Source: Acephala macrosclerotiorum (taxonomy: Eukaryota > Ascomycota > Leotiomycetes > Helotiales > Mollisiaceae). Taken from it: a DNA stretch of 64,000 nt. Position numbers and translations under genes: made by a program. Numbering within the stretch: the stretch's first letter is position 1; every line of letters begins with the position of its first letter. The stretch is from positions 155,833 through 219,832 of the forward strand of contig MU119280.1 of the NCBI GenBank assembly GCA_014904845.1. The letters run 5' to 3'. The notes under the pieces are model-generated. The model saw only the letters and a list, made by a program, of their open reading frames with translations, searched no databases and was not told where the DNA came from. This document shows positions 9,177 to 14,275 of the stretch, one piece after another.

Positions 9177-11263
9177 ATGGCAGACAAGAACGAGAAGCTG
9201 GGCAAGTCTAGCAGTGACTCCGCCGATCTCGACGGCAGGACAGAGATCGAACACACTTCCATACGAAACACCTCAGACGTGGGAACAGAGAGTGTCGACG
9301 CGAATCAACTCCGAGCGAACATCAATGCAAAAATCGCCAACCCTCTGGCAGGCCTTACTCATGCCGAACTGCGTCAGAAAGGCGAGGCTTACGTCCGAGA
9401 ACATCAGATTGGAGACGACGAGGACATTCGAGCTTTCCAATTAGGTGCCATCCTTGCACAGGACCCGAACCGACACGCAGAAATCGATGGACTCACCGAG
9501 GAAGAGGGCGCCGTTCTAGCGAAGGAGATCAGCAGCAAGTGGTCCCAACCGAAGCTGCTCTACCTGGTCATCATACTTTGTTCCACATGTGCTGCTGTAC
9601 AGGGAATGGACGAGACTGTTGTTAATGGAGCTCAGATCTTCTATGCACAACAGTTCGGCATCGGCGACAAGACTAGCTCCCGAGACTCTTGGTTGGTTGG
9701 CCTCGTCAACTCAGCTCCCTACCTCTGCTGCGCTTTCATCGGATGTTGGCTCACAGTTCCTCTTAACAATTGGTGGGGACGACGTGGGACGGTTTTCATC
9801 ACATGTGTCGTCTCAGCGTTGGCTTGCATTTGGCAAGGCGAGTCCTAATTCCACCTTGCTCGAGACAATCTACTAACTTTGGTAGCCCTCGCTGGTTCAT
9901 GGTGGCATATGTTCATCGCACGCTTTGCGCTCGGGTTGGGAATCGGTCCAAAGAGCGCTACAGTACCTATCTACGCTGCTGAGTGTTCTCCACCCCAGAT
10001 TCGTGGTGCTCTAGTCATGCAATGGCAGATGTGGAGTAAGCATTTCGTCCCATTTCCGCTGAAACTCAGTCGCTGACTTTCACGTAGCTGCTTTTGGTAT
10101 CTTTGTCGGATACGCCGCCGATCTAGCATTCTACAGCGTTAAGGATCAATCTGGAATAGTCGGCCTCAACTGGAGATTAATGATGGGATCTGCCTGCCTA
10201 CCTGCGATTATTGTCGTCTGCTTCGTTTTCTTGTGCCCGGAATCGCCTCGCTGGTACATGAGCAAGGAAAGACACGCAAAGGCTTATCAAAGCATGTGCA
10301 AGCTCAGATACAACAAAGTCCAAGCCGCCCGAGATGTATTCTACATGTACACCTTACTCCAAGCTGAGAAGGAGAGTGTCATTCTCGGGGGCAACAAAGT
10401 CAAGGAAATGTTCACTGTGCCTCGAAATCGCCGGGCTATGCAGGCATCTGAGATTGTCATGTTTATGCAACAGGTGAGAACTTCTTTATACCATTGAAGA
10501 GAACTGAAGACTGACAGTGAATCAGTTTTGCGGAGTCAATGTCATCGCCTACTACTCATCCCAAATTTTCCTGGATGCCAATCTATCTGAGGTCAGCGCT
10601 CTTGCTGCCTCTCTAGGCTGGGGTGTTATCAACTTCCTCTTCGCCCTTCCTGCAGTCTATACCATCGATACCTTCGGCCGCCGAAACCTTCTTTTGGTGA
10701 CATTCCCGTTAATGTCTCTTTGCTTGTTCTTCACTGGCTTCAGTTTCTGGATTCCAGCAGACTCAACAGCCCGAATTGCTTGCGTCGCTCTTGGTCTCTA
10801 CCTTTTCGGAATCGTTTACTCCCCAGGAGAAGGTCCAGTACCCTTCACCTACTCGGCTGAAGCTTATCCACTGTATATCCGTGGTCTCGGAATGTCTCTG
10901 GCTACCGCGACAACTTGGTTCTTTAACTTCGTTCTTTCTGTCACGTGGCCCAGTCTTCTCAAGGCATTCAAGCCACAAGGAGCCTTCGCTTGGTATGGAG
11001 TCTGGAACTTGATTGGGTGGGTAGCTGTCTTACTGTTCGTTCCGGAAACCAAGGGCAAGACTCTCGAAGAGCTTGACCAGGTCTTCGGTGTCCGTTCTCG
11101 GGATCACGCGGCGTATGGTATCAGACAGATTAAGCACTTCTTCGGCAGGCATCTCCTCAGGAAGGATATCGAGCCCGAGCAGTTGTATGAGAAGGATAGT
11201 GTTGAACATCATCCCAGCAGCTTCTCCCAGGAAAAGGAGGCTGATTCTACTGCTAGAGTTTGA
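9177..11263 (+). CDS. MFS sugar porter (hexose/polyol/inositol-type transporter), 644 aa
   Basis: Exons 9177-9837, 9886-10035, 10088-10473 and 10526-11263. A hydrophilic N-terminus of about 130 residues precedes twelve predicted membrane helices. Sugar-porter marks are visible: GMDETVVNGAQIFY at helix 1, WWGRRG after helix 2, RFALGLGIGPKSATVPIYAAE in helix 4, the mid-loop PESPRW, FGRRN after helix 8, and PETKGKTLEELD at the end. These place it in the sugar porter family; the long N-terminus and the MDETVVNGAQ motif resemble fungal transporters annotated as polyol or myo-inositol permeases, but the substrate is inferred. Intron 1 (9838-9885) must be GC-AG: the donor CAAG|GCGAGT restores the frame, the nearby GT does not. 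Introns 2 and 3 are ordinary 52-nt GT-AG. Likely plasma membrane, proton-coupled. Confidence 0.93.
9838..9885 (+). other. GC-AG intron in the sugar-porter gene
   Basis: Donor AAG|GCGAGT, branch site ACTAAC, acceptor GGTAG, 48 nt. Only this donor joins ACIWQ to ALAGSWWHMFIARF in frame, which is the conserved order in sugar porters. The nearby GT at 9842-9843 would shift the frame. Confidence 0.85.
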
Positions 11264-13340: not shown

Positions 13341-13800
13341 AGGTGTTGGATGAAGATGATGAAAGATTAAAGTGCGGATGAAGGCTAGGTCGAGAATATG
13401 TAGAACTTAGAACGTGAGGATTCACGATGACGAGATATTTCATTCAGGAGAATAATTGGCACGCATAAATGTCTTTGAATTTTCATTATTCAAACTAAGA
13501 ATTCTGGTCAATGGAAGCATCACCTCCCACACCCTGTAGTTGCACTCTTCCTCTAAAGTTAGATTACTATAAGATGTCTAATTGAAACGGCAAGAGGAGC
13601 CATTTCTGAATATGCTGCATTACAGATGATTCAAATTCACAAAACTCAGGACACTCTCATGTGACTCTCTTTCCACGAAAAAGGATATCGCCATCGGCTT
13701 TTCCACGGCATGCATTCGCAAACGAAACGCAAGGTACACCGAGAGGTACAGCATCTTACTATATAGATTTAAACAACATGTTCCACTTCAACCAATCACA
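13341..13800. other. intergenic region before the tRNA-like gene
   Basis: No gene or promoter element is recognisable here. It is slightly AT-rich and contains no long open frame. Confidence 0.4.
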
Positions 13801-13989
13801 GCCCTCGTAGCTCGTATGTTCCATTAACACCACATTCGGGGTTCATAACTGACGAATTTCTCAGAATGGTAGAGCGCGTCACTAGTAAAAGCCTAACTTT
13901 GATATGACGAGGTTGCCGGTAAGCTTGCTTCTCTTCAATATTCCATAACAAAAACTAATTCTGAGAAGGTTCGATTCCGTCCGAGGGCA
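13801..13989 (+). tRNA. tRNA-Thr(AGU)-like gene with three interruptions
   Basis: The pieces assemble into a 72-nt cloverleaf. The acceptor arms are GCCCTCG (13801-13807) and CGAGGGC (13982-13988), seven perfect pairs. The D stem GCTC (13810-13813) pairs with GAGC (13872-13875) across loop AATGGTA. The anticodon stem CGTCA (13877-13881) pairs with TGACG (13905-13909), with anticodon AGT at 13884-13886. The variable loop is AGGTT, the T loop TTCGATT (13970-13976), and the discriminator A. Interruptions are 13814-13864 (51 nt, GTATGT...CTGAC...CAG) in the D arm, 13888-13903 (16 nt) at the normal 37/38 site, and 13919-13968 (50 nt, GTAAGC...CTAAT...AAG) in the T stem. The T stem has one C-U mismatch (second pair). 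TTTCTTTTT follows, suiting a Pol III stop. The A box is split, the B box is intact. It may be a functional gene with unusual introns or a pseudogene invaded by introns. Confidence 0.7.
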
Positions 13990-13998
13990 TTTCTTTTT
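13990..13998 (+). terminator. possible RNA polymerase III terminator
   Basis: The T-rich run TTTCTTTTT directly follows the discriminator base of the tRNA-like gene. Pol III stops at runs of four or more T. Confidence 0.45.
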
Positions 13999-14275
13999 GG
14001 AATTTCTCTTCGCTTCGTGACTCTACGTAGTTCTGAACAATTTTTGCTCTCACCGCATTTGAATGTGTTGTGGGGCATGCTCGTACTCGCTCGCTTCAGC
14101 CTCTTTTGAGGCAAGCGAGCTTGACCCCTTTATGGTCATATCACACTGTCCAAACAGAATTGTGAGAGATATTATATCTACGTGTTTCTTCATACGATTG
14201 TAAAGTTCTAAATCCATCGTGAGGTCCTCCTAAGACTTTACATTCTCTCACCTCCCCTCTTGACACCGATCTCTC

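Follow-up and report, generated by a model that had tools for sequence, protein, structure and literature searches.

The tRNA-Thr(AGU) locus that we analysed in Acephala macrosclerotiorum was very probably a functional nuclear gene and one of many in this genome in which spliceosomal introns interrupted the body of the tRNA. It was located at positions 13801-13989 (189 nt; C79:169633-169821 in the assembly) of a 64,000-nt stretch of DNA (the window), where four exons, together 72 nt after joining, were separated by three introns of 51, 16, and 50 nt. The original prediction stated that a cloverleaf would form once these three pieces were removed, that the middle piece was an ordinary 37/38 intron, and that the D and T arms contained spliceosomal-looking introns. 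These statements were borne out. Namely, the cloverleaf was recovered by the finder described below, and the spliced 72-mer was present without interruption elsewhere in the genome (at C276), where it scored 67.2 bits with RF00005. The middle piece (16 nt, 13888-13903) had the position of an ordinary 37/38 intron, and introns of the outer kind recurred in 27 further resolved tRNA genes. The locus comprised the following parts:

13762-13778, plus strand: upstream TATA-type element TATAGATTTAAACAACA (also written TATAGATTTAAA), 39 nt ahead of the gene; proposed Pol III promoter element
13788-13800, plus strand: block TCAACCAATCACA directly 5' of the tRNA, mostly common to the C173 copy (CAACCAATCACA); possible start site, by its putative function
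13801-13813, plus strand: exon 1, tRNA-Thr positions 1-13, identical in the C173, C13, and C276 genes
13814-13864, plus strand: GT-AG intron of 51 nt at 13/14, the border of the D stem and loop, splitting the A box; GTATGT...CTGAC...CAG
13865-13887, plus strand: exon 2, positions 14-37, anticodon AGT
13888-13903, plus strand: ordinary 37/38 tRNA intron of 16 nt
13904-13918, plus strand: exon 3, positions 38-52
13919-13968, plus strand: GT-AG intron of 50 nt at 52/53 in the T stem; GTAAGC...CTAAT...AAG; genomic B box GGTTCGATTCC completed by its last G
13969-13989, plus strand: exon 4, positions 53-73
13994-13998, plus strand: TTTTT, a Pol III-type terminator that begins five bases 3' of the gene

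The gene was flanked by open reading frames of the opposite strand. In genomic DNA its A box was split and its B box was contiguous, because the final G of the T-stem intron and the exon sequence GTTCGATTCC together formed GGTTCGATTCC. Neither ARAGORN nor Rfam at the gathering score found a tRNA in the unspliced window. Since the intronless twin scored well, this was attributed to the limited reach of both tools for split genes; the covariance-model check proposed with the prediction thus failed on the genomic form and succeeded on the sequence at C276 that was identical to the spliced form. A scan of 13601-14200 for bacterial-type promoters and terminators returned nothing, which had no bearing on Pol III. 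The minimum free energy fold of the spliced Thr 72-mer was a cloverleaf with a 3-bp T stem (z of -1.70; 14 of 200 shuffles were equally stable), and its centroid fold contained only the acceptor and anticodon stems. By this model, the folding of the spliced RNA would surpass that of shuffles only modestly. The corresponding fold of spliced Ala(AGC) was without a D stem. Elsewhere in the window, positions 38000-64000 formed an extreme AT-rich block with about 8-31% GC per 2 kb, mostly 8-13%, versus 46-50% before it.

Copies of the gene were sought with a DNA search of the 69.7-Mb assembly, together with a search for exon 2 at up to three mismatches, the latter of which gave seven places. Looking for other tRNAs with both insertions, as had been proposed, was productive since two genes carried introns at the same three places. 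The first was the only other match to the whole structure (C173:87986-88168), in which 72 of the 72 exon bases were the same and the introns (50, 12, and 49 nt) had diverged in sequence from those of the window. The three-intron Thr(AGU) structure was therefore present at two loci only. The second was a Thr(UGU) gene at C27, with compensatory changes at stem pairs 7-66 (G-C to A-U) and 51-63 (C-G to U-A). Additionally, a Thr(AGU) gene at C13:103326 had the D-arm intron only, and the intronless Thr(AGU) gene at C276:28773-28844 was exactly equal to the spliced 72-mer. Given the latter, the window locus itself need not be essential.

It had been suggested that one mismatch in the T stem left a pseudogene possible. 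This mismatch, C50-U64, was shared by the four whole Thr(AGU) genes, among them the gene that lacks introns, and its counterpart in Thr(UGU) was a U-G pair. Thus, it was a property of the tRNA rather than the mark of a pseudogene. Two fragments were also observed. The sequence at C13:103662, considered as a twin gene, was rejected as an inverted, 5'-truncated, degenerate Thr(AGU) fragment, and C276:28356-28425 contained a degenerate inverted Thr(AGU) fragment without an intron. Each was located about 340-420 nt from a whole gene, and the C13 fragment retained the final bases of the D-arm intron.

For a genome-wide census, loci were gathered by Rfam tRNA matches, by a pattern of B box plus T run (100 matches listed), and by an upstream element (80 regions). 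The finder required a cloverleaf to form once as many as three GT-AG introns had been taken out, each 40-90 nt long, with a scored donor and a YTRAY site. Applied to 164 loci, read as 650 overlapping strand pieces that totaled 342,384 nt, it returned 57 unique calls; the reversed sequence and five shuffles yielded none. Taken together with the identical exons and different introns of the C173 copy, these null controls excluded chance. One call was a duplicate, so that 56 loci remained, of which 19 contained between one and three GT-AG introns and 37 contained no such intron. Eight more split genes were added from exon-pattern searches for Ala(AGC), Ser(GCU), and Gly(GCC), and one unsplit call was re-read as split. 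The finder's call of L073 as Leu(CAG) was rejected in favor of Gly(GCC) with a 31/32 intron. Pattern YAGGTTCGANNCC was discarded, with 61 places versus 77 in the reversed control, which was chance level.

In total, we obtained 28 split genes for 15 anticodons with 47 GT-AG introns, and 36 unsplit genes; the ratio of 28 to 64 was no estimate of the genome fraction, as the loci were not randomly drawn. The introns were found in the D, T, and anticodon arms, the variable loop, and the acceptor stem. Their sites were 6/7, 11/12, 13/14, the D loop, 26/27, 31/32, the variable loop, several positions from 49/50 to 57/58, and then 61/62, 64/65, and 71/72. An Arg(CCG) gene (L155) combined three GT-AG introns with one 37/38 intron. 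The least certain model, at L132, was an Ile(UAU) gene that had an anticodon intron of 70 nt and a second intron at 71/72. Three loci unsolved by the strict finder (L074, L055, and L066) were left out of the counts, and so were L061 and L110, which were solved under relaxed rules only and carried stem mismatches. At L074 (C98:23400-23850), a Glu-like tRNA with a T-arm GT-AG intron was observed, and its D-arm insertion started with GTAAGT and had no AG end where the cloverleaf required one.

The 47 GT-AG introns were 46-59 nt long (median of 51, with 40-90 allowed) and ended in TAG (20), CAG (17), or AAG (10). CTAAC was the best branch motif in 20 of the 47, and the branch A was located 9-19 nt from the end in 42. 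The donor, the [CTA]AG end, and the YTRAY site were search criteria for 38 of the 47, so these features were partly built in for most introns. The other nine, all from Gly(GCC), were collected with a plain GT...AG pattern between fixed exons and had the same features, including branch-like sites and a length of about 50 nt, although some of their donors were weak (GTTTGT, GTCAGA, and GTTAGA). Introns of 46-59 nt are too short for the catalytic core of a group I or group II intron, and Rfam at the gathering score found no intron of either group in the window.

The similarity of the outer introns to the mRNA introns of this genome, also part of the prediction, was confirmed in ends, donor, branch motif, and length by comparison of the 47 introns with eight mRNA introns (45-54 nt, with the same signals). 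Three of the eight came from a sugar-transporter gene in the window (9177-11263; 48, 52, and 52 nt). The first of them was of the GC-AG type (9838-9885, GCGAGT...CTAAC...TAG). The remaining five were taken from transporter paralogues by tblastn, which gave few introns; candidates needed a branch motif, one of 87 nt was excluded, and at two loci where a pair of alternative introns was possible, the shorter was taken.

We also considered that the D- and T-arm pieces were ectopic introns of the bulge-helix-bulge (BHB) type, which in Cyanidioschyzon merolae and some archaea are excised by the tRNA splicing endonuclease. In the published account of C. merolae, nuclear tRNA genes had up to three introns of 11-69 bp that often interrupted the A and B boxes, with TATA-like sequences upstream and a T stretch downstream (PMC3978253). 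The genes described here were similar in having multiple introns, also outside 37/38, split boxes, a TATA-like upstream element, and a downstream T stretch, and the split boxes together with the upstream element spoke for a common mechanism. However, the C. merolae junctions formed the BHB structures recognized by the tRNA endonuclease (PMC3978253), whereas the introns of A. macrosclerotiorum had GT-AG ends, branch-like sites, and lengths of 46-59 nt, with no excess of BHB. Namely, under permissive criteria, a 4-bp central helix between two bulges could form at 2 of the 47 GT-AG junctions versus 3.8 expected with introns dealt to other sites. The 37/38 introns of the census served as a positive control and gave 9 of 30 versus 5.0 expected (P of 0.03). 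The nine Gly introns, gathered without a donor or branch filter, had branch-like sites at about 50 nt in length as well, and we considered the BHB origin very unlikely.

The canonical eukaryotic 37/38 introns were represented in this genome too, both in the window gene and in many of its relatives. Unlike the GT-AG introns, they varied in length, lacked splice signals, and were confined to the anticodon loop. tRNAscan-SE 2.0 applies BHB models to seek noncanonical introns in archaeal tRNAs (PMC8450103). A closer parallel in intron type was the rDNA of lichen fungi such as Cladonia grayi, for which a 57-bp spliceosomal intron was described (PMC8527467). As there, the introns reported here were short, of the mRNA type, and located in an untranslated RNA gene probably outside Pol II, and their removal by the spliceosome would be comparable (PMC8527467). 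The lichen case concerned Pol I rRNA rather than tRNA, and the word "tRNA" did not occur in the main text of that paper (PMC8527467). Among the literature matches listed, judged by title and the start of the abstract and with thin coverage of subscription papers, none described a nuclear tRNA gene with spliceosomal introns.

Spliceosomal removal of introns from these tRNAs was also consistent with the genes that appeared to depend on it. All four Ala(AGC) genes found were split at the same two GT-AG intron positions (15/16 and 51/52), and their mature sequences were identical. The six Gly(GCC) genes found, one solved as such by the finder (L077/L188) and five read by pattern, all carried the 31/32 intron, and four of them also had a T-loop intron at 57/58. 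An acceptor-stem intron at 6/7 was present in all three Ser(GCU) genes found, two of which had another intron at 49/50, and the anticodon stems of the split copies covaried (ATGGC/GCCAT, ACAGC/GCTGT, and ATGCC/GGCAT). The Ser search led to two further places at three mismatches (C291 and C425), neither with a tRNA call. These counts covered genes within two to three mismatches of the patterns. Since all the genes found for the three isoacceptors were split, splicing looked obligatory for Ala(AGC), Gly(GCC), and Ser(GCU), as judged from the sequences.

Under another explanation, the window locus and those like it were tRNA pseudogenes or decaying copies that bore insertions and made no tRNA. 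The original prediction named a lack of spliced RNA together with intact Thr(AGU) copies elsewhere as the grounds for rejecting the split gene, and of these two, an intact copy was present at C276; other isoacceptors, however, were found only as split copies, which made pseudogene status untenable as a general explanation. The two degenerate fragments near the C276 and C13 genes and the stem mismatches in L061 and L110 were in line with decay. On the other hand, the exons of paralogues were identical or covarying, as in the 72 of 72 bases shared by the split Thr(AGU) copies and in the compensatory changes of split Thr(UGU) and Ser(GCU), whereas intron interiors were near shuffled similarity (group means of 0.47-0.65 identity versus 0.49-0.52 shuffled, mostly slightly higher). 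The most alike were the Gly 57/58 introns, with up to 0.88 identity. A promoter-like element and a T run were retained as well, and the restriction of the three-intron Thr(AGU) structure to two loci spoke against a tRNA-derived repeat. We therefore regarded the pseudogene explanation as highly improbable. Moreover, copies with and without a given intron had identical mature sequences in Thr (C276), Trp (L012/L029), and Glu(CUC) (L072, L081/L062), and these intron-free copies fixed the splice junctions. Functional genes with spliceosomal introns would account for the conserved exons, the intron anatomy, and the isoacceptors found only in split form.

The split A box had been expected to block ordinary Pol III start. 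A TATA-type element like TATAKATTTAAATAAGC was drawn by eye from loci L053-L083 and scored at 12 or more matches of 17. It was found about 30-70 nt upstream of 17 of the 19 split and 35 of the 37 unsplit calls, and the 40 control windows were all free of it. In L001-L052, which were neither selected by the element nor used in drawing it, it preceded all six split calls and 28 of the 30 unsplit ones. The same element was present before SRP RNA and U6 genes; the SRP RNA locus matched Fungi_SRP, and the U6 gene (L164:89-234) had an Rfam score of 67.7 bits and was interrupted by a GT-AG intron of 52 nt, with GGAT on its 5' side and GACACGC on its 3' side. Among loci that were not fetched for the T run, all 11 split calls and 32 of the 33 unsplit ones were followed by TTTT at a distance of no more than 60 nt. 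The shared upstream element and the T runs suggested transcription by Pol III with an upstream promoter. With such a promoter, the split A box, and also the split B box in four Gly genes, need not stop transcription, and the expected block would not necessarily follow.

The mRNA-type introns known from U6 snRNA genes of some fungi offered a further comparison. The similarity lay in a GT-AG intron within a Pol III RNA, exemplified here by L164 behind the same element, and the difference was that the U6 case concerned an snRNA with one intron rather than a tRNA. Within the introns of the census, TTTT runs were present in 2 of the 47 versus a dinucleotide-shuffle mean of 8.6. AAAA runs were low too (12 versus 23.5), and so the scarcity of TTTT could not be cleanly assigned to selection against termination by Pol III.

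It was also conceivable that the introns were spliceosomal and the precursors were Pol II transcripts, or were contained within longer Pol II RNAs, and underwent ordinary co-transcriptional splicing. Pol II RNA is the usual substrate from which GT-AG introns are removed, and a TATA-type element by itself names no polymerase. However, the element was common to the U6 and SRP RNA genes, which Pol III transcribes in other organisms, T runs followed closely behind all 11 split genes that were not fetched for them, and the genes ended as ordinary tRNA genes do. On this evidence, Pol II precursors seemed rather unlikely, and we infer transcription by Pol III. Regarding its factors, the genome encoded Tau95 of TFIIIC, and the TFIIIC B-block family was not found in it, perhaps because the search was not sensitive enough. 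A loss of TFIIIC did not follow from this pattern.

Other sequences were observed in the regions selected by the upstream element. A 5S rRNA identity was dropped for these loci, as none matched the 5S motif. A rough motif for a family of small RNA-like units, with sequences such as CGCCTGGCCCGA and CACACGCCA, was matched by 18 of the 80 regions (L085, L091, L095, L097, L105, L107, L111, L112, L115, L130, L131, L140, L143, L144, L148, L149, L156, and L163). L085, L091, L095, and L097 had no Rfam match at the gathering score, and L105 had none at an E value of 0.01. Possibly, these units represented a new Pol III RNA family. In addition, two related loci, L092 (C4:492036-492532) and L103 (C13:448735-449231), had a B-box-like end and an insertion of the GTAAGC...CTAAC type. 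No matching 5' acceptor strand was seen in either, and neither matched Rfam at an E value of 0.01. They were possible candidates for a further split small RNA.

For the tRNA genes with spliceosomal introns, we propose the following route, in which spliceosomal removal and the order of steps are inferred as well. Pol III would start at the upstream TATA-type promoter and stop at the T run. The spliceosome would then take the GT-AG introns out of the primary transcript, after which the tRNA body could fold and its ends could be trimmed by RNase P and tRNase Z. The 37/38 intron would be removed by the tRNA endonuclease after folding. The spliceosome was placed first because the body recognized by RNase P, tRNase Z, and the tRNA endonuclease would be absent before splicing.

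In the textbook view, nuclear tRNA introns are solely for the tRNA endonuclease, and the spliceosome serves Pol II transcripts. It was likely that in this fungus the nuclear tRNA genes were invaded genome-wide by spliceosomal introns and that Ala-AGC, Gly-GCC, and Ser-GCU were only available in spliceosome-dependent form. Translation would then be tied directly to the capacity for pre-mRNA splicing, and two unrelated splicing systems would have to act on single tRNAs, one always before the other. If true, this would be a second route of tRNA splicing, with the spliceosome routinely acting on Pol III transcripts that are short and presumably lack a cap. Split genes of this kind can escape standard tRNA detection, as the one in the window escaped both ARAGORN and Rfam. 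Copies in which the same site was either occupied by an intron or empty provided a natural series for intron gain and loss. These genes pointed to a route by which introns could spread into essential untranslated RNA genes.
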